A stretch of DNA of 64,000 bases from Pseudonocardia broussonetiae. Its GTDB lineage: Bacteria; Actinomycetota; Actinomycetes; Mycobacteriales; Pseudonocardiaceae. Below are positions 26,723-57,167 of this stretch, piece by piece (position 1 is the first letter of the stretch; every line of letters begins with the position of its first letter). Where the stretch lies: the NCBI RefSeq assembly GCF_013155125.1, contig NZ_CP053564.1, forward strand, positions 3,293,501-3,357,500, given 5' to 3'. A program made the translations under genes and the position numbers. The notes beneath the pieces were generated by a model, which was not told the DNA's origin, ran no database searches, and saw only the letters and a list, made by a program, of their open reading frames with translations.

Positions 26723-26732
26723 CGAAGATCTC

Positions 26733-26850
26733 CTCATCTTCCCCGCACCGTGCGGGTCGGAATTGGCACCGTGATCGAGCACGCCGCTGGTGCGTGTCTC
26801 GCCGGTTGCCGGGGCTTCAACGGGCCGTTCCCTCTGCCCCTCTGGATGAG
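26733..26850 (-). promoter_or_regulatory. SAM-I (S-box) type riboswitch controlling thrC
   Basis: On the minus strand the leader reads CTCATC, then CAGAGGGGCAGAGGGAA, the kink-turn and GAAGCCCCGGCAACC core, a variable stem, GGTGCCAATTCC, a final stem and GATGAG. That is the S-box order. P1 pairs CTCATC (26850-26845) with GATGAG (26738-26733). The ribosome site GAGGAG (26735-26730) shares three bases with the 3' strand of P1 and ends 7 bases before the ATG, so SAM binding would hide it. Translational control is inferred. Confidence 0.9.
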
Positions 26851-26955
26851 CCATGTGCAGTTGTGCCGATGACGCTACGACATGAGCGACCCCGATCCCA
26901 ACACTTGTCCGGCATGTGGGAGCCGGATCACCGGTCGTCGGTGCCGTGCGCGACG

Positions 26956-46448: not shown

Positions 46449-46523
46449 TCAGGACCCCGGACACACCGCCGACCACACGCGACCGAGGTCGACGTGCCGG
46501 CGGCTCACCAGCGGGACGGGCAT
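46449..46523 (-). CDS. RRHVDL-type leader peptide upstream of ssuD
   Basis: A 24-codon ORF whose core SRRHVDLGRVWSAVC matches the actinobacterial putative leader peptide pattern (RRHVDLxRxxSAxC). Its single cysteine is coded TGT, rare in this GC-rich DNA. The last codons and stop (GTCCTGA) contain GTCCT, exactly complementary to AGGAC in the ssuD ribosome site 20-odd bases on. That fits a translated upstream ORF controlling ssuD by ribosome position; the mechanism is inferred. Confidence 0.72.
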   Translation of the reverse strand: MPVPLVSRRHVDLGRVWSAVCPGS

Positions 46524-46662: not shown

Positions 46663-46725
46663 ATGGGGATCCCGCTGAAGCGCCGGAGGCACGTCGACCT
46701 CTGCCGCACCAGCGCGGCGCTGTAG
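46663..46725 (+). CDS. RRHVDL-type leader peptide upstream of the FAD protein gene
   Basis: A 20-codon ORF, MGIPLKRRRHVDLCRTSAAL, with the same RRHVDL core as the ssuD leader. Its cysteine sits inside the core (DLCR) and the usual Cys after SA is missing. It ends 41 bases before the FAD/NAD(P)-binding protein gene. It diverges from the ssuD leader; 139 bases separate the two start codons, so one promoter region drives two leader-preceded genes. Confidence 0.68.
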   Translation: MGIPLKRRRHVDLCRTSAAL

Positions 46726-48630: not shown

Positions 48631-48718
48631 ACGAGACCCCGACACGGCCGCAACGAGACCGCGACTCGCGGGCTCGTTCGCGAGTCGGGGTCTCGTTGCG
48701 TGTGAGTCGGGCTGGGCG
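48631..48718. repeat. Dispersed mirrored intergenic element, copy 1
   Basis: The unit ACGAGACCCCGAC appears direct at 48631, with one mismatch at 48653, inverted at 48684 (exact) and as a partial inverted match at 48706, giving spacings 22, 31 and 22. The central hairpin has 22-bp arms (48649-48670 and 48679-48700) with one mismatch and an 8-base loop. It begins 10 bases after the FAD-protein stop and could end transcription from both sides. Copy 2 is at 58420-58519. Confidence 0.82.
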
Positions 48719-48719
48719 C

Positions 48720-48923
48720 TCAGCCCAGCTGCGGGTGCCGGTGCAGGGCGGTGCGCGTCATCGCGAGGTGGTGGGCCACCTCGGCGCTGATCAGCTCGGC
48801 GTGCAGGTCGACGTGCTCGGTGTGCAGGGCGAGGGCCCGGTGCCGCCGCACGAGGTCGTCGAGCGAGCTCAGCAGGCGGTCGGCGATGTGGCGTCGGGAC
48901 TCGTCACGAGTGGACGTGGACAT
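48720..48923 (-). CDS. Small hypothetical protein at the end of the ssu operon
   Basis: A 67-residue, probably helical protein rich in His, Arg and Leu (SRRHIADRLLSSLDDLVRRH near the start). It has no membrane span and no family I recognise. ATG 48923 has GGAG 7 bases upstream and lies 48 bases after the 26-residue microprotein gene, so it should be on the ssuABC transcript. Its stop is next to the dispersed palindromic element, which may terminate the operon. Confidence 0.6.
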   Translation of the reverse strand: MSTSTRDESRRHIADRLLSSLDDLVRRHRALALHTEHVDLHAELISAEVAHHLAMTRTALHRHPQLG

Positions 48924-48971
48924 GGGTGTGCTCCGAACCGGGAGGGGGGACGAGGGGTGCGCTGACCGGGG

Positions 48972-49052
48972 TCAGCGACAGCGCTCGTCGAACGCGTGGA
49001 ACCGCCGCGAGGGCCAGAACGGTTCCAGGTCCCGGTGCGGAGCGGGGCTCAC
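48972..49052 (-). CDS. 26-residue FWPSRR microprotein after ssuC
   Basis: A GTG-started ORF overlapping the ssuC stop (GTGA). Its last 19 residues, DLEPFWPSRRFHAFDERCR, match 16 of 19 residues of the microprotein that precedes ssuA. The DNA differs mostly at third codon positions, which points to selection on the peptide. Like its partner it ends TGT-CGC-TGA with a single cysteine. It may be a leader for the downstream 67-codon gene, or a small partner of the transporter. Confidence 0.65.
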   Translation of the reverse strand: MSPAPHRDLEPFWPSRRFHAFDERCR

Positions 49053-49924
49053 AGCGCCAGCCCCCGCGCCTGCAGCACGCGCCGCTCCAGCGGCTTGAAC
49101 ACCAGCAGCTCGATGCCGACGCCGACCAGCAGGATGAGCACGATCGCCGAGATCACCCCGGCGATGTTGTTCACGTCGCTGCCCTCCTTGAGGTAGGCGC
49201 CCAGGCCCACCCCCAGCTGCGGCGAGGTCGCGATGATCTCCGCGGCCATCAGCGAGCGCCAGGCGAACGCCCAGCCCTGCTTGCAGCCCGCGATGTAGCC
49301 GGGCAGCGCGGCGGGCAGCAGGATCAGGCGGGCCGAGGCGAGGCGCCCCGCACCCATGACGTCGCCGACGCGGCCCAGGATCGGCGGCACCTGGTCGATG
49401 CCCGAGACCAGCCCGTTGGCGATCGAGGGCACCGAGCCCAGCAGGACGACGAAGTAGATCGTGGCGTCGGTGAGCCCGAACCACAGCACCGCCGCGGGCA
49501 CCCAGGCCACCGACGGCAGGCTCTGCATCCCCGAGAGCAGCGGCCCGATCGCGCGGCGCACGAACGACACCTTGGCGACGAGCAGGCCCAGCGGGGTGGC
49601 GATCGCGACCGACACGAGGAAGCCGACGATCGCGCGGCCGACCGAGGTCCAGGTGATCGACCAGATCGAGCCGTCGACGACGATCTCGGTGAACTGCTCG
49701 GCCACCGCGATCGGCGCGGGCAGCTTGAACTCCGGCCAGATCGCCGACGCCCACAGCACCTGCCACGCCACGATGACGACGACGAGCGTGAGCAGCGGCG
49801 GCACCGACGACGACAGCAGGCGCCGCCAGAGCGGGACCCGCTGCGCGGTCGGGGTGTCGAGCGCGTCGAGCCCGGCGACGGCGGCGGCGTCGTCGCGGGT
49901 GAGGGCGTCAGGCGGCGCGGCCAT
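49049..49924 (-). CDS. ssuC: ABC transporter permease (sulfonate/taurine/nitrate type)
   Basis: A 291-residue BPD-type permease with six membrane helices from about residue 38 to 280. The EAA loop lies around GRVGDVMGAGRLASARLILLPAALPGYIAG (in part). Sequence is of the SsuC/TauC/NrtB group. A helix-rich 40-residue N-terminal tail comes before the first span. It follows ssuB with a 17-base overlap and is followed by the overlapping microprotein ORF. The substrate is inferred from neighbours to be a sulfonate or sulfate ester. Confidence 0.9.
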   Translation of the reverse strand: MAAPPDALTRDDAAAVAGLDALDTPTAQRVPLWRRLLSSSVPPLLTLVVVIVAWQVLWASAIWPEFKLPAPIAVAEQFTEIVVDGSIWSITWTSVGRAIVGFLVSVAIATPLGLLVAKVSFVRRAIGPLLSGMQSLPSVAWVPAAVLWFGLTDATIYFVVLLGSVPSIANGLVSGIDQVPPILGRVGDVMGAGRLASARLILLPAALPGYIAGCKQGWAFAWRSLMAAEIIATSPQLGVGLGAYLKEGSDVNNIAGVISAIVLILLVGVGIELLVFKPLERRVLQARGLAL

Positions 49925-50693
49925 GCGTCGAGATCACCTCCCGCAGGCGGTCGGTGATCTCCTCGGTCAGGACCTCGCGGTCGCCGGAGGTGAGGTCCCA
50001 CTCGCCGACGACGGTGCCCGGGCGCGAGGACAGCAGCACGACGCGCTGCCCCAGCCGGACGGCCTCGCGGACGTCGTGGGTGACGAAGACGACCGCGGTG
50101 CCGGTGGCCCGCCACACGCGCGCGAGCTCGCCCTGGAGCACGTCGCGGGTGATGGCGTCGAGCGCGGCGAACGGCTCGTCCATCAGCATCAGGCGGCTGC
50201 CGCGCTCGGAGCCGACCGTGGTGGCCGCCAGCGCGCGGGCCAGGGCCACGCGCTGGCGCATGCCGCCGGACAGCTCGTGCGGGCGCTTCGCGGCCTGGCC
50301 GTCGAGCCGCACCAGCTCCAGCAGCTCGCCCGCGGTGTTCCGCCGCGCCGACCGGCCGACCCCGGCGAGGCGCAGCGGCAGCTCGACGTTGCGGGTGGCG
50401 GTCAGCCACGGCAGCAGCGCGGGCTCCTGGAACATGACCGCCGGGCGGTCGGTGGCGACGTCCACCGTGCCGACCGTGGGCTCGTCGAGCCCGGCCAGCA
50501 TGTTGAGCAGGGTGGTCTTGCCGCAGCCCGACGCGCCGAGCAGGCACACGAACTCGCCCGGCTCGACCCGCAGGTCGACGCCGGTGAGCGCGGTGACGGC
50601 GCCCGCGCCGGCGCCGAAGACCTTGGAGACCCCGGTGAGCTGGGCCGCGGGCCGGGTCGGGGCCTGCACGGTGCGATCGAGCGTGGCGGTCAT
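49908..50693 (-). CDS. ssuB: ABC transporter ATP-binding protein (sulfonate type)
   Basis: A 261-residue importer ATPase. Walker A is GASGCGKTT, the Q-loop is MFQEPALLPW, the signature LSGGMRQR, Walker B LMLMDEPFAALD and the H-loop VFVTHD. The sequence is closest to SsuB/TauB/NrtC. ATG 50693 begins MTATLDRTV. It lies 11 bases after ssuA and overlaps ssuC by 17 bases. Confidence 0.93.
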   Translation of the reverse strand: MTATLDRTVQAPTRPAAQLTGVSKVFGAGAGAVTALTGVDLRVEPGEFVCLLGASGCGKTTLLNMLAGLDEPTVGTVDVATDRPAVMFQEPALLPWLTATRNVELPLRLAGVGRSARRNTAGELLELVRLDGQAAKRPHELSGGMRQRVALARALAATTVGSERGSRLMLMDEPFAALDAITRDVLQGELARVWRATGTAVVFVTHDVREAVRLGQRVVLLSSRPGTVVGEWDLTSGDREVLTEEITDRLREVISTHGRAA

Positions 50694-50704
50694 CAGATCA
50701 GTCC

Positions 50705-51775
50705 TCAGGGAGTGTCGAGTCCGGCGGCGTCGACGGCCGGCTGCCCGGTCGCCTCGAGTTCGGCGTTGAGCGGGCCCACGTCGACGAACCCGGCCAGGTC
50801 GACGAGCTCGTCGGCGATGCCGGCGTCGACGCTGTCCTGGGCGAGCTGCGGGAAGGTGGAGGCCAGCGGGTCGGTGGAGAGGGTCAGCTCGGTGAAGGCG
50901 CGGGCGATGACGGGGTCGGCGAGCCGGTTGCCGGTCAGCTCCTCGATGCCGTCGTTGACGATCGTGGCGGCGCGCGCCGGGTCGGCGTTCGCGAGCTCGG
51001 TGGCGGCGATGTGCCCGCGCAGCAGCGCGCGCACGGTGTCCGGGTACTGCGTGACGAAGTCGGTCGACACGAGCAGCACCGTGGTCGGGAAGTGCCCGCC
51101 GTCCCACAGCTCGCGCTCGTCGAGCAGCACGCTGGCGCCGGCGTCGAGGACCAGGCGGGAGCTCCACGGCTCCGGCAGCCACGCGGCCTGCACGCTGCCC
51201 TGGCGGAAGGCGTCGAGCGTGCGGGGGTTCTCCAGGTTGGCGATCTGCACCTGGTCGGGCGCCTCGCCCACGGTCAGGCCCTGGTCCTTCAGCCAGACCT
51301 TGAGCGCGATGTCCTGCGTGTTGCCCAGCTGCGGGGTGGCGATGGTGGTGCCGCGCAGCTGCTCGGGCGAGGTGATGTCGGGGCGGACGACGAGCTGCGC
51401 GCCGCCGTCCGTGGCGCCCGCGACGAGCCGCACGGCCTCGCCGTCGGACTGCGCGAACGCGTTGATCGCCGGGCCGGAGCCGATGTAGGTGGCGTCGATC
51501 GAGCCGCCGAACAGCGCGTTGACGGCGTCGCCGCCCGCGTTGAAGTTCTGGGTGGTGAGCGTGGTGTCACCGAGCTCGGCGGTGAACAGGCCCTCCTGGT
51601 CGCCGATGATGGCGGCGGCGTGGGTGACGTTGGGGAAGTAGCCCAGCCGCAGCTCGGCGGCGGTGCCGCCGGCCGCGGGGGCGGCGGCGTCGGGGGTGCG
51701 TTCGGCGCGGGAGCAGCCGGCGAGGGCCAGCGCCGCGGTGACGGCGACGACCAGGGTGGTCCGGAGGCGGGACAT
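50705..51775 (-). CDS. ssuA: ABC transporter substrate-binding lipoprotein (sulfonate type)
   Basis: A 356-residue lipoprotein. The signal peptide ends in the lipobox LALAGC (Cys near residue 21), so it is anchored to the outer face of the membrane. The mature part is an NMT1/THI5-type periplasmic-binding fold (LRLGYFPNVTHAAAIIGDQE, then IATPQLGNTQDIALKVWL). Its ribosome site GAAGGA lies 12 bases before the ATG. This site is exactly complementary to TCCTTC directly after the stop of the upstream microprotein ORF. Substrate: sulfonates by context. Confidence 0.9.
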   Translation of the reverse strand: MSRLRTTLVVAVTAALALAGCSRAERTPDAAAPAAGGTAAELRLGYFPNVTHAAAIIGDQEGLFTAELGDTTLTTQNFNAGGDAVNALFGGSIDATYIGSGPAINAFAQSDGEAVRLVAGATDGGAQLVVRPDITSPEQLRGTTIATPQLGNTQDIALKVWLKDQGLTVGEAPDQVQIANLENPRTLDAFRQGSVQAAWLPEPWSSRLVLDAGASVLLDERELWDGGHFPTTVLLVSTDFVTQYPDTVRALLRGHIAATELANADPARAATIVNDGIEELTGNRLADPVIARAFTELTLSTDPLASTFPQLAQDSVDAGIADELVDLAGFVDVGPLNAELEATGQPAVDAAGLDTP

Positions 51776-51886
51776 CGGGGGTGGTGGTCCTTCGGTTCGG
51801 GGGGCGCGGCAGGCCGATCTCGTCGGCGCGCGCCGGAGCGGGCGGGTGCGGGCACGAGGGGGCCGCGCAGGGGTGGAACGGAAGGA

Positions 51887-52015
51887 TCAGCGACAGAACT
51901 CGTCGAACGCGTGGCCGCGGCGGGACGGCCAGAAGCGCTCGAGGTCCGTGGCGAGGCGGTGCGCCGGGGCCGCGGGCACGCCGGAAGGCGTCGCGCTGGT
52001 CTCCGTCGGCGTCAC
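51887..52015 (-). CDS. 42-residue FWPSRR microprotein / leader ORF before ssuA
   Basis: A GTG-started ORF. Its N-terminal half is low-complexity (Thr, Ala, Pro). Its last 19 residues, DLERFWPSRRGHAFDEFCR, match the ORF after ssuC at 16 of 19 positions. It ends TGT-CGC-TGA, and the six bases after the stop (TCCTTC) can pair with the ssuA ribosome site GAAGGA. So a ribosome stopping at the TGT or at the stop codon would cover the anti-ribosome-site strand and free ssuA. I infer a cysteine-responsive attenuator. Confidence 0.62.
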   Translation of the reverse strand: MTPTETSATPSGVPAAPAHRLATDLERFWPSRRGHAFDEFCR

Positions 52016-52233
52016 CGCTCCATCGTGAGCCGCGCGGCGCCGGGGTTCAAGGAGCCATCCGGCATGCAGGACGGCGGCGCGAATGTCCGGTCAAAGGCCG
52101 TGTGACGGGGCGCCGGCCCGCTGACCTGCGACGACGCCGATCTGGTCGCCCGTGCCGCACCCACGGCGGGCCCGGACGGGCCGGTTCCGCCCGCCGACGT
52201 GTCCGGACGTGACAGGAGACACGGTCGGGGGAC

Positions 52234-52307
52234 GGCTCGCACACAGGCCGCGGGGCCCGCACACAGGTCCGGACCTGTGTGCGAGCCCCGCGAGGTGTGT
52301 GCGAGCC
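52234..52307. terminator. Mirrored palindrome after cysN
   Basis: The unit CTCGCACACAGG is direct at 52236 and (one mismatch) 52256, inverted at 52274 (exact) and 52294 (two mismatches), spacings 20, 18 and 20. The central 26 bases (52258-52283) form a perfect palindrome, and outer 12-bp arms are at 52234-52245 and 52296-52307. It starts 19 bases past the cysN stop on the minus strand, so it probably ends the sir-cysN transcript. The rest of the 311-base gap 52016-52326 would hold the ssu promoter; no ORF is supported there. Confidence 0.78.
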
Positions 52308-55192: not shown

Positions 55193-55335
55193 GAGGGAAC
55201 TCCGATCCCGATCATCTTCAGCGTGAACGTGCGCAGGCACGAGCCGCAGTACCAGGCCCCGTGCGCGGCCTCCGCGGGCCGCAGGTCCTCGTCGCCGCAG
55301 TACGGGCAGTAGAACGGGACGGCCCGCTCACTCAC
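55189..55335 (-). CDS. Small zinc-ribbon protein of the sulfite reductase operon
   Basis: A 48-residue protein with two CxxC pairs, FYCPYCGD near residue 9 and WYCGSCLR near residue 29, a compact zinc- or iron-binding ribbon. It overlaps the sir stop at its start (GTGA) and the cysH start at its end (ATGA). I recall a small gene in the same position in Streptomyces sir-cysH operons. A role as electron-transfer or metal-delivery partner for Sir or CysH is a guess. Too small for confident fold assignment. Confidence 0.8.
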   Translation of the reverse strand: MSERAVPFYCPYCGDEDLRPAEAAHGAWYCGSCLRTFTLKMIGIGVPS

Positions 55336-57008
55336 TTCAGGTCGTCCTCGTCGGCCCGCAGCACCCACTGGGCGAAGCGCTCGCCGTCGGTGCGTTGTTC
55401 CGCGAACTTGCGGACCACCCGGTCGACGTAGTCGCCGAGCTCCGCGCTGGTGACCTTCAGGCCGCGCAGCTTGCGCCCGAAGCCCGAGTCCAGCCCGAGC
55501 CCGCCGCCCAGGTGCACCTGGAAGCCCTCGACCTGGTTGCCCGCGGCGTCGGTGACGATCTGGCCCTTGAGCCCGATGTCGGCGACCTGCGTGCGGGCGC
55601 AGGAGTTGGGGCAGCCGTTGAGGTGGATGGAGATCGGGTGCTCCGGCACGACGTCGGCCAGGCGCTTCTCCAGCTCCTCGACCAGCCGGATCGCCCGCTC
55701 CTTGGTCTCGACGATCGCGAGCTTGCAGAACTCGATGCCCGTGCACGCCATCGTGGCGCGGCGCCACGGCGACGGGTCGGCCTGCAGGCCCAGCGTGTTG
55801 AGCCGGGCGACCAGGGCGTCGACCTTGCCGTCGGCGACGTCGAGCACGACGATCTTCTGCTGCGCGGTGAGCCGCACGCGGCGCGAGCCCGCCTTCTCGA
55901 CGGCGTCGGCGAGCGCGACGAGCGTGGTGCCCGAGACGCGTCCGGAGGCCGGGGCGACGCCGACGTAGTTGCGGCCGTCGACCTGCTTGTGGACGCCGAC
56001 GTGGTCGATCGGGTGCTCGGGCGTGGCGGGCGCCGGGCCGTCGACCATCTTCCGGCCCAGGTACTCGTCCTCCAGCACGCGGCGGAACTCCTCGACGCCC
56101 CAGTCGGCCACGAGGAACTTGATGCGCGCGCGGTGGCGCAGGCGGCGGTAGCCGTAGTCGCGGAAGACGCCGATGATCCCGGCCCACACGTCGGGGACCT
56201 CGTCGAGCGGCACCCACGCGCCCAGGCGCTGCGCGATCTTCGGGTTCGTCGACAGGCCGCCGCCGACCCACACGTCGAAGCCGGGGCCGTGCTCGGGGTG
56301 CACCGAGCCGATGAACGACACGTCGTTGATCTCGTGGGCGACGTCCTGCTGCCACGAGATCGCCGTCTTGAACTTGCGGGGGAGGTTCGAGAACTCCGGG
56401 TTGCCGACGTAGCGCTCGACGATCTCGTCGATGGCAGGCTGCGGGTCGAGCACCTCGTCGGCGCTGACGCTCGCGACCGGGGAGCCCAGCACGACGCGCG
56501 GGGTGTCGCCGCAGGCCTCGGTGGTGACCATGCCCAGGCCCTCGAGCTTCTTCCAGATCGCGGGCATGTCGACGACGTCGATCCAGTGGTACTGGATGTT
56601 CTGCCGGTCGGTGACGTCGGCGGTGTCGCGGGCGTAGGTCTGGCTGATCTCGCCGAGGGCGCGCAGCTGCTCGGTGGTCAGCGCGCCGCCGTCGAGCCGG
56701 ACGCGGAGCATGAAGTAGGAGTCGTCGAGCTCCTCGGGCTCCAGCGCCGCCGTGCGGCCGCCGTCGATCCCGGGCTTGCGCTGCGTGTAGAGCCCCCACC
56801 AGCGCATCCGGCCGCGCAGGTCGGCCGGGTCGATCGAGTCGAAGCCGCGCTTGGCGTAGACGTTCTCGATCCGCGCGCGGACGTTGAGCCCGTCGTCGTC
56901 CTTCTTGGTGCGCTCGTTCGGGTTGAGCGGCTCGCGGTGGCCGAGCTTCCACTGGCCCTCGCCGCGCTTGCGCTTGGCGGGGACGCGGGCAGGTGTGGTG
57001 GGCGGCAA
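55332..57008 (-). CDS. sir: Ferredoxin-dependent sulfite reductase (siroheme, 4Fe-4S)
   Basis: A 558-residue enzyme reducing sulfite to sulfide. The two half-domains are visible (DRQNIQYHWIDVVDMPAIW and its C-terminal counterpart). The cluster/siroheme cysteines are in ACTGIEFCK and NGCPNSC. It resembles mycobacterial SirA/NirA, and its place beside cysH favours sulfite over nitrite. The start is TTG 57008 with GGAGG about ten bases upstream. An RRHVDL leader ORF ends 60 bases upstream. It heads the sir to cysN operon. Confidence 0.95.
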   Translation of the reverse strand: MPPTTPARVPAKRKRGEGQWKLGHREPLNPNERTKKDDDGLNVRARIENVYAKRGFDSIDPADLRGRMRWWGLYTQRKPGIDGGRTAALEPEELDDSYFMLRVRLDGGALTTEQLRALGEISQTYARDTADVTDRQNIQYHWIDVVDMPAIWKKLEGLGMVTTEACGDTPRVVLGSPVASVSADEVLDPQPAIDEIVERYVGNPEFSNLPRKFKTAISWQQDVAHEINDVSFIGSVHPEHGPGFDVWVGGGLSTNPKIAQRLGAWVPLDEVPDVWAGIIGVFRDYGYRRLRHRARIKFLVADWGVEEFRRVLEDEYLGRKMVDGPAPATPEHPIDHVGVHKQVDGRNYVGVAPASGRVSGTTLVALADAVEKAGSRRVRLTAQQKIVVLDVADGKVDALVARLNTLGLQADPSPWRRATMACTGIEFCKLAIVETKERAIRLVEELEKRLADVVPEHPISIHLNGCPNSCARTQVADIGLKGQIVTDAAGNQVEGFQVHLGGGLGLDSGFGRKLRGLKVTSAELGDYVDRVVRKFAEQRTDGERFAQWVLRADEDDLK

Positions 57009-57068: not shown

Positions 57069-57167
57069 TCAGCGACAGATCGCGCTGCTCACGCGGCTCA
57101 GGTCCACGTGGCGCCGGGCGACGAGGCGCAGGACCAATGCCGCGGCCCCGGCGAACGGGGCGGGCAT
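57069..57167 (-). CDS. RRHVDL-type leader peptide upstream of sir
   Basis: A 32-codon ORF ending LVARRHVDLSRVSSAICR. The RRHVDLSRVSSAIC core is a textbook match to actinobacterial putative leader peptides found before sulfur genes. The single cysteine is the next-to-last residue, coded TGT, and the ORF ends TGTCGCTGA, the same nine bases as the two ssu microproteins. A shorter form starting at TTG 57137 is possible. Control of the sir-cysN operon by cysteine-dependent ribosome stalling is inferred. Confidence 0.75.
   Translation of the reverse strand: MPAPFAGAAALVLRLVARRHVDLSRVSSAICR

Follow-up and report, generated by a model that had tools for sequence, protein, structure and literature searches.

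Two related small ORFs at the ssuABC locus

The stretch of DNA analysed here comprises 64,000 nucleotides (nt) of Pseudonocardia broussonetiae (contig NZ_CP053564.1, positions 3,293,501 to 3,357,500 of the forward strand) and is referred to as the window. Two short open reading frames (ORFs), one on either side of an ssuABC gene set, encode peptides with a shared FWxxRR core, and our analysis suggests that both are candidate leader ORFs through which expression of the genes behind them would be tied to cysteine supply. The first-pass annotation of this DNA had described ORFs of 42 and 26 codons whose tails agree at 16 of 19 residues (84%), whose DNA differs mainly in third positions and which both close with TGT-CGC-TGA. 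All of this proved correct; between the two window stretches, 7 of the 12 base differences lie in third positions. The features of the locus are as follows.

51887-52015, minus strand: leader ORF 1, GTG start, 42 codons, ending in DLERFWPSRRGHAFDEFCR before the stop, 111 nt upstream of ssuA
51893-51895, minus strand: invariant UGU cysteine codon of leader 1 (pattern search and codon counts)
50705-51775, minus strand: ssuA-family substrate-binding protein (TIGR01728, above cut-off)
49908-50690, minus strand: ABC ATP-binding protein of taurine/sulfonate/nitrate type, ssuB-like (below the curated cut-offs shown)
49049-49924, minus strand: ABC permease, ssuC-like (below the curated cut-offs shown)
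48972-49052, minus strand: leader ORF 2, 26 codons, its GTG start overlapping the ssuC stop (GTGA), ending in DLEPFWPSRRFHAFDERCR before the stop
48978-48980, minus strand: invariant UGU cysteine codon of leader 2 (pattern search and codon counts)
48960-48977, minus strand: hairpin CGCTGAC-CCCG-GTCAGCG directly 3' of the leader 2 UGU
48720-48923, minus strand: conserved ORF of 67 amino acids (aa), the first gene after leader 2 (gap 48 nt)

FWxxRRxxxFDxxC matches the window at two places; 100 shuffles of the window gave no match. The order on the minus strand is sulfite reductase, cysH, cysD, cysN, leader 1, ssuABC, leader 2 and the 67-aa ORF, after which comes a convergent FAD-NAD(P)-binding gene. 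The three genes between sulfite reductase and leader 1 are those which we take, from their sequences, to be cysH, cysD and cysN.

Distribution of the FWxxRR motif

Six places emerged when the whole genome was searched with the 19-residue tail. They stand before ssuABC, before the 67-aa ORF, before a 1-Cys peroxiredoxin (MVRTSLEAFWPSRRITHFDELCRPAA), before a small beta-carbonic anhydrase (MRMLLEAFWPSRRIIEFDGFCPPAA) and, as a tandem pair, before a gene weakly matching SBP56/methanethiol oxidase. Nine positions are identical in all six copies, giving LExFWxxRRxxxFDxxC. A profile built from the six rows found seven places in this genome at E<=1, six of which were those of the tail search. At the same loose cut-off it matched in 34 of 35 genomes of the same genus and in 54 of the 60 genomes searched, our own included.

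Scanning one genome per species for FWxxRRxxx[FY]DxxC gave at least 120 stretches, and among those listed 101 of 120 were actinobacterial by record title. The genera were Pseudonocardia, Actinomycetospora, Mycobacterium/Mycolicibacterium, Rhodococcus, Streptomyces, Embleya, Kitasatospora, Yinghuangia, Frankia, Actinokineospora, Kutzneria, Kineococcus and others. The other 19 stretches are taken as chance matches, judged from their cores and flanks.

Sites whose frame closed ahead of the cysteine or ran more than 16 codons beyond it were excluded, among them L094, which has a good core and a 31-residue tail. The 144 sites were merged to 135, and six that were not actinobacterial (L043, L051, L064, L104, L128 and L149) were then dropped. 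The resulting set, a lower bound, holds 129 sites, nearly all actinobacterial: 2 in the window, 4 elsewhere in the genome, 25 in relatives and 98 in named records. No family in Pfam or NCBIfam matched the FWxxRR peptides. The leader searched as a predicted protein had 57 matches, its own copy included, all of them unnamed or labelled "hypothetical" or "uncharacterized", and four variants of the core string did not occur in the literature searched. Tandem leaders before one gene were seen in L009 (5916-6085, plus strand), L171 and L078; the gene is SBP56-like in the former two and encodes a protein without a Pfam match in the last.

Invariance of the UGU codon

The pattern used to collect the sites permitted TGC at position 17, yet the cysteine codon at this position was TGT in 129 of 129 sites. 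Syntenic loci collected with a looser expression, which partly overlap these sites, gave TGT in 25 of 25. The downstream genes use 6 TGT against 116 TGC, and the remaining cysteines of these peptides use both codons (before position 17, 18 TGC and 3 TGT; after it, 22 TGC and 23 TGT). Across 394 genomes of the taxonomic class, the TGT form of the pattern was found in 35 places, 6 of them in this genome, the TGC form in none, and a reversed-pattern control in none. The chance matches outside actinobacteria comprise 7 TGT and 12 TGC.

A further cysteine at position 22 was seen in three Rhodococcus sites (L061, L066 and L070) and in L016 and L023; its codon is TGT in all five, and in the three Rhodococcus sites the hairpin comes after this second UGU. 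Frameshifting at UGU into the downstream gene was considered and rejected, because the leader-to-gene distances occupy all three frames (remainders 0/1/2: 20/11/10 in the TauE type and 3/15/7 in the carbonic-anhydrase type).

Genes downstream of the leaders

Downstream genes were assigned to classes by BLAST of the following 1.5 kilobases (kb) of DNA against reference proteins from the same loci. Fifteen recurring classes accounted for 120 of the 129 sites; of the nine sites without a class, two had less than 100 nt of downstream DNA.

TauE/SafE permease: 43 sites
Beta-carbonic anhydrase: 26 sites
MetY: 10 sites (6, plus 4 with a 2-oxoglutarate oxygenase in front)
SsuA: 8 sites
Cysteine dioxygenase: 7 sites
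Family-5 solute-binding protein: 4 sites
Unnamed Actinomycetospora protein: 4 sites
APS kinase: 3 sites
YeiH putative sulfate exporter: 3 sites
SBP56-like (weak match): 3 sites
67-aa ORF: 3 sites
Peroxiredoxin: 2 sites
Luciferase-like monooxygenase: 2 sites
Winged-helix regulator: 2 sites

The main classes were confirmed on representatives with Pfam and NCBIfam. Leader and gene lie a median of 61 nt apart in the TauE class and 88 nt apart in the carbonic-anhydrase class. By family name, sulfur genes lie downstream of 77 of the 129 sites (TauE/SafE, SsuA, cysteine dioxygenase, MetY with the oxygenase, APS kinase, YeiH and SBP56-like). Carbonic anhydrase, which is ambiguous as a sulfur gene in that relatives hydrolysing carbonyl sulfide are known, follows 26 more.

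The first-pass annotation had offered two roles for these peptides, leader peptide and small transporter partner. The former is well supported, with a recurring class within 1.5 kb at 120 of 129 sites, classes that are mutually unrelated, variable N-termini and tails, and one codon that never varies. The transporter partner was rejected because the same peptide precedes many genes that are not transporters, among them carbonic anhydrase, MetY, APS kinase, cysteine dioxygenase and peroxiredoxin; such a function would also leave TGT in 129 of 129 sites unexplained. More generally, a functional microprotein, whether a transporter partner or a thiol-redox peptide, would accord with the strong conservation of the peptide, yet it hardly fits with N-termini that differ, tails that range over 1-14 residues, neighbour genes that are unrelated and the invariant TGT, and we regard it as improbable in the extreme.

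The same annotation had stressed that the two copies bracket ssuABC. This appears incidental upon comparison with 15 relative stretches. In three of them a copy after ssuC heads a module of its own, namely leader, TauE/SafE and YeiH in L160, and leader, YeiH and the 67-aa ORF in L161 and L163. In stretch L162, YeiH follows ssuC and the space between them holds just a weaker match to the profile (E 4.1e-6); in three others (L167, L168 and L173) nothing like copy 2 was recognised after ssuC. Without an adjoining ssuC, L166 shows leader, TauE/SafE and 67-aa ORF, and L169 shows a leader immediately before the 67-aa ORF, as in the window. Because of these arrangements, leader 2 is assigned to a separate module of transporter and 67-aa ORF, whose transporter gene is absent in the window and may have been lost here. 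For the 67-aa ORF 61 homologues were found; all that carry an organism name are from Pseudonocardia or Pseudonocardiales, and in Pseudonocardia relatives the ORF adjoins YeiH or TauE modules. One homologue carries the source label tRNA G46 methylase TrmB.

A second leader family in the window

The window also contains a member of NF042934, a family of "putative leader peptides" with the motif RHVDL, together with a sulfur gene downstream of it.

57069-57131, minus strand: NF042934 (RHVDL) leader, LVARRHVDLSRVSSAICR, with UGU at 57075-57077 and the ending TGT-CGC-TGA
55332-57008, minus strand: sulfite/nitrite reductase gene, separated by 60 nt from the RHVDL leader upstream of it

One sulfur locus is thus served by both leader families, FWxxRR and RHVDL. 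The last conserved cysteine of NF042934 was TGT in 26 of 27 cases (23 of 24 in an overlapping count).

Two further RHVDL-like matches were noted. The peptide MGIPLKRRRHVDLCRTSAAL at 46663-46725 (plus strand) stands before the FAD-NAD(P) gene; its sole cysteine is TGC and it has no C-terminal cysteine. A divergent match at 46461-46511 (minus strand, opposite to the former), ending in SRRHVDLGRVWSAVCPGS, has TGT as its cysteine codon and scored 25 bits in the genome search, below cut-off, and 27.1 bits, at cut-off, as a separate piece. Rfam at gathering threshold gave a single match over the window, a SAM riboswitch (RF00162, 79.7 bits) at 26731-26852 (minus strand), and none at the leader locus.

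RNA structure after UGU

An excess of RNA structure starts 0-5 nt past UGU and is gone at 10 nt (n=114). In 60-nt windows the z-score was -0.90 at 0, -0.83 at 5 and -0.09 at 10 nt, compared with -0.07 to -0.34 at 200-230 nt. The Rhodococcus, Mycobacterium and carbonic-anhydrase groups show this excess clearly.

Part of this structure is a stem at a fixed place. All 119 distinct sites with enough DNA were taken for the stem tests, and in 22 of them an arm GG[CT]C[AG]CG begins exactly 5 nt after UGU. These are 18 of the 26 carbonic-anhydrase sites, both peroxiredoxin sites, one SBP56-like site and one without class. Within offsets 0-15, the form GGCC[AG]CG occurs only at offset 5, in 20 sites. 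Since the stop lies 1, 4, 7, 8 or 9 residues past the cysteine in these sites, the arm is positioned on UGU and not on the stop. The partner CG[CT]GGCC occurs within 90 nt in 21 of the 22 arm sites but in only 7 of the other 97, and stems of at least 7 Watson-Crick pairs starting at offset 5 numbered 11 against 1.0 expected.

We also aligned 19 leaders picked by hand (L007 and 18 of carbonic-anhydrase type, leaving out L019, L032, L060, L102, L109, L127, L129 and L136). In this picked alignment 98.7% of cells pair, as compared with 27-53% when the arms are slid. Two example leaders fold far better than their shuffles (z -2.7 and -2.8). RNAalifold on MAFFT alignments of the Mycobacterium and Rhodococcus leaders showed slight covariation, with 1 of 20 and 7 of 36 pairs changed on both sides, and it did not recover a hairpin that had been seen by eye in mycobacterial spacers. 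For these two reasons we rely on window z-scores and fixed offsets.

Complementarity to the Shine-Dalgarno region was scanned as well. Codons 12-17 are complementary to the -25 to -2 region of TauE in Mycobacterium (z -2.0 and -1.8, n=18) and Rhodococcus (z -1.8 and -2.6, n=9), and weakly so in the carbonic-anhydrase type (z -0.4 and -0.6, n=25); the control codons 4-9 showed no such complementarity. Taking all sites together, no other leader segment is as complementary to the downstream sequence as codons 12-17, probably in part through coincidence of conserved codons.

Selection on the peptide

The FWxxRR sites are constrained both as coding sequence and as RNA, and the peptide itself is under selection. 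Among 121 distinct sites, codon 7 encodes serine by TCN in 61, serine by AGY in 27, glycine in 22 and threonine in 11. Arg8 and Arg9 draw on all four CGN codons, and the swaps between peptides are conservative (F/Y, E/D and E/Q). The ratio of nonsynonymous to synonymous variation (pN/pS) was 0.54 in columns 1, 2, 6, 7 and 15 and 1.15 in the variable columns. The possible starts differ among sites, and 1-14 residues follow the cysteine.

These data bear on the idea that the motif is a structured RNA or a protein-binding site merely resembling an ORF. The invariant TGT, the stem locked to it in one subtype and the structure excess right after UGU would suit such an element, but the switching of serine between TCN and AGY, the free third positions of Arg8 and Arg9 and the conservative swaps would not, nor was there an Rfam match at this locus at the threshold given above. 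We therefore consider it very improbable.

An arrest peptide that senses a metabolite is a further alternative. Here the nascent chain itself would stall the ribosome, with a sulfur compound (cysteine, sulfite or a persulfide, for example) promoting or relieving the stall. Nascent-chain residues upstream of the fixed codon are conserved in the FWxxRR leaders, and conservation extends far past a cysteine codon. FW lies 12-13 and RR 8-9 residues before the cysteine, which places FW roughly where the key residues of TnaC and SecM lie, and the targets include genes for excess and detoxification. However, it is the codon that is invariant and not merely the residue, which points to decoding, and the RHVDL family has the TGT without FWxxRR. 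An arrest peptide of this kind is possible, though on balance unlikely.

Interpretation

We propose that the FWxxRR ORFs are cis-acting, cysteine-sensing, translation-dependent attenuator leaders of a mainly sulfur-related regulon, with a probability of roughly 0.7. The analysis establishes the family, its placement, conservation of the peptide, TGT at all sites examined and, in one subtype, a stem fixed to UGU; we infer translation, pausing, the cysteine signal, the polarity and the level of control (translation or transcription). The short ORF would be translated, and when charged tRNA-Cys is scarce the ribosome would pause with UGU in its A site. Judging from the general geometry of a paused ribosome, whose footprint would extend over codons 12-16 with the stem at its leading edge, it would cover these codons and sit at or on the 5' arm of the hairpin after UGU. 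A structure that lowers expression would thereby be blocked and the downstream gene expressed. This structure may be a masked Shine-Dalgarno sequence in the TauE-type leaders of Mycobacterium and Rhodococcus, and the GC stem after UGU in most carbonic-anhydrase leaders. With ample cysteine the ribosome would move off and the structure would form. UGU is the wobble codon of tRNA-Cys(GCA), and reading by wobble would raise the sensitivity of the pause to tRNA-Cys supply. The pause probably gains further strength from the conserved nascent chain L[ED]xFWx[SGT]RRxxx[FY]D.

Several results weigh against this interpretation. Little or no structure excess is seen in three groups, Ssu (n=5), MetY (n=8) and Pseudonocardia TauE (n=12), and the RHVDL family has a weak one at best (30-nt window z -0.67, standard error 0.28). 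Without carbonic anhydrase the offset-5 stems number 2 against 0.6 expected, so that no clear stem is left. Covariation in the hand-picked stem alignment is slight, with one pair changed on both sides, a result at least equalled by 227 of 500 shuffles. The window copies themselves do not fold significantly better than shuffles (z -1.06 for the leader 2 hairpin stretch, and -0.96). In 48700-52300, the region scanned, neither a U-tract terminator nor a sigma-70 promoter was found, nor the GC stem followed by a U-tract of a classical transcription attenuator. In Pseudonocardia, the genus of the window, the TauE leaders lack complementarity to the -25 to -2 region (z about 0.1, n=14). The same scan scored higher inside coding sequence (z about -3 to -4), probably by coincidence of conserved codons, and the Shine-Dalgarno scan is therefore weaker as evidence. 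As for the peptide, pN/pS over all columns left free by the search pattern was 0.84. A run of cysteine codons is not the usual arrangement: core plus tail hold a single cysteine in 82 of 129 sites, and a cysteine adjoins C17 in 30 of 129 sites. Occurrence in the class is patchy, since an even sample gave the motif in 25 of 394 genomes and 7 of 138 genera. Finally, an excess of cysteine or stress from sulfite accounts for cysteine dioxygenase, the putative sulfite/sulfate exporters and peroxiredoxin better than a shortage does, so the polarity proposed here is tentative.

A further-reaching idea, which we hold to be quite doubtful, is that actinobacterial sulfur control reads the UGU codon itself, so that the pause reports sulfur modification of the tRNA in addition to its charging. 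Both leader families, without recognisable similarity to each other, would need UGU, and in one subtype the pause would be timed by a stem placed exactly 5 nt further on, where the mRNA enters the ribosome. The modification ms2i6A37 is common to tRNAs for Phe, Trp, UCN-Ser and Cys codons, and by this chemistry codons for tRNAs bearing it would fill FWxS...F..C. If true, UGU reading would amount to a codon-specific sulfur sensor.

As for the cysteine-sensing attenuator, members of the leader family stand ahead of sulfur genes in Pseudonocardia, Mycobacterium, Rhodococcus, Streptomyces, Frankia and others. The family would join in one candidate regulon genes which are seldom grouped, namely those of carbonic anhydrase, peroxiredoxin, cysteine dioxygenase and TauE/SafE. 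It also offers a simple rule that can be tested, namely that the control cysteine codon must be UGU, and this rule across two leader families is what most deserves a test.

Comparison with known systems

Tryptophan acts on the stalling of TnaC. The arrest peptides TnaC and SecM resemble the FWxxRR leaders in having conserved aromatic and charged residues about 12 positions before the stall site, but the latter have an invariant UGU and a variable stop position, and no homology is claimed.

NF042934 (RRHVDLxRxxSAxC) likewise consists of short ORFs before sulfur genes, with a conserved C-terminal cysteine encoded by TGT and, in the window, the same TGT-CGC-TGA ending. It differs in that there is no sequence match between the two and that 12 residues separate RR from the cysteine, as opposed to 8 in the FWxxRR peptides. 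The two window peptides and ten further members did not reach its 27-bit cut-off. The sole profile match listed for these 12 was to the unrelated YrbN model, at 12.9 bits and below cut-off, and no cysteine-leader model matched in listings at E up to 10.

The source study for the polycysteine attenuators of mycobacteria is reportedly that of Canestrari in 2020. These leaderless small ORFs are, according to the citing papers (PMC9094748, PMC13236596, PMC7790235), cysteine-codon leaders of sulfur genes, as the FWxxRR ORFs appear to be; the latter differ in having a single cysteine in most sites and the FWxxRR nascent chain in all. One of these papers describes translation attenuation as Shine-Dalgarno masking relieved by stalling and, citing Canestrari 2020, reports cysteine genes of M. 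smegmatis under translation attenuation (PMC13236596).

Cysteine leader peptides in Actinobacteria are thus already known, also from the leaders of cys operons in Seliverstov 2005 (PMC1262725), where the actinobacterial candidates, similarly to ours, have no obvious terminators. Those leaders carry runs of cysteine codons near the stop and no conserved hairpin, whereas the FWxxRR leaders have one UGU and, in one subtype, a positioned stem.

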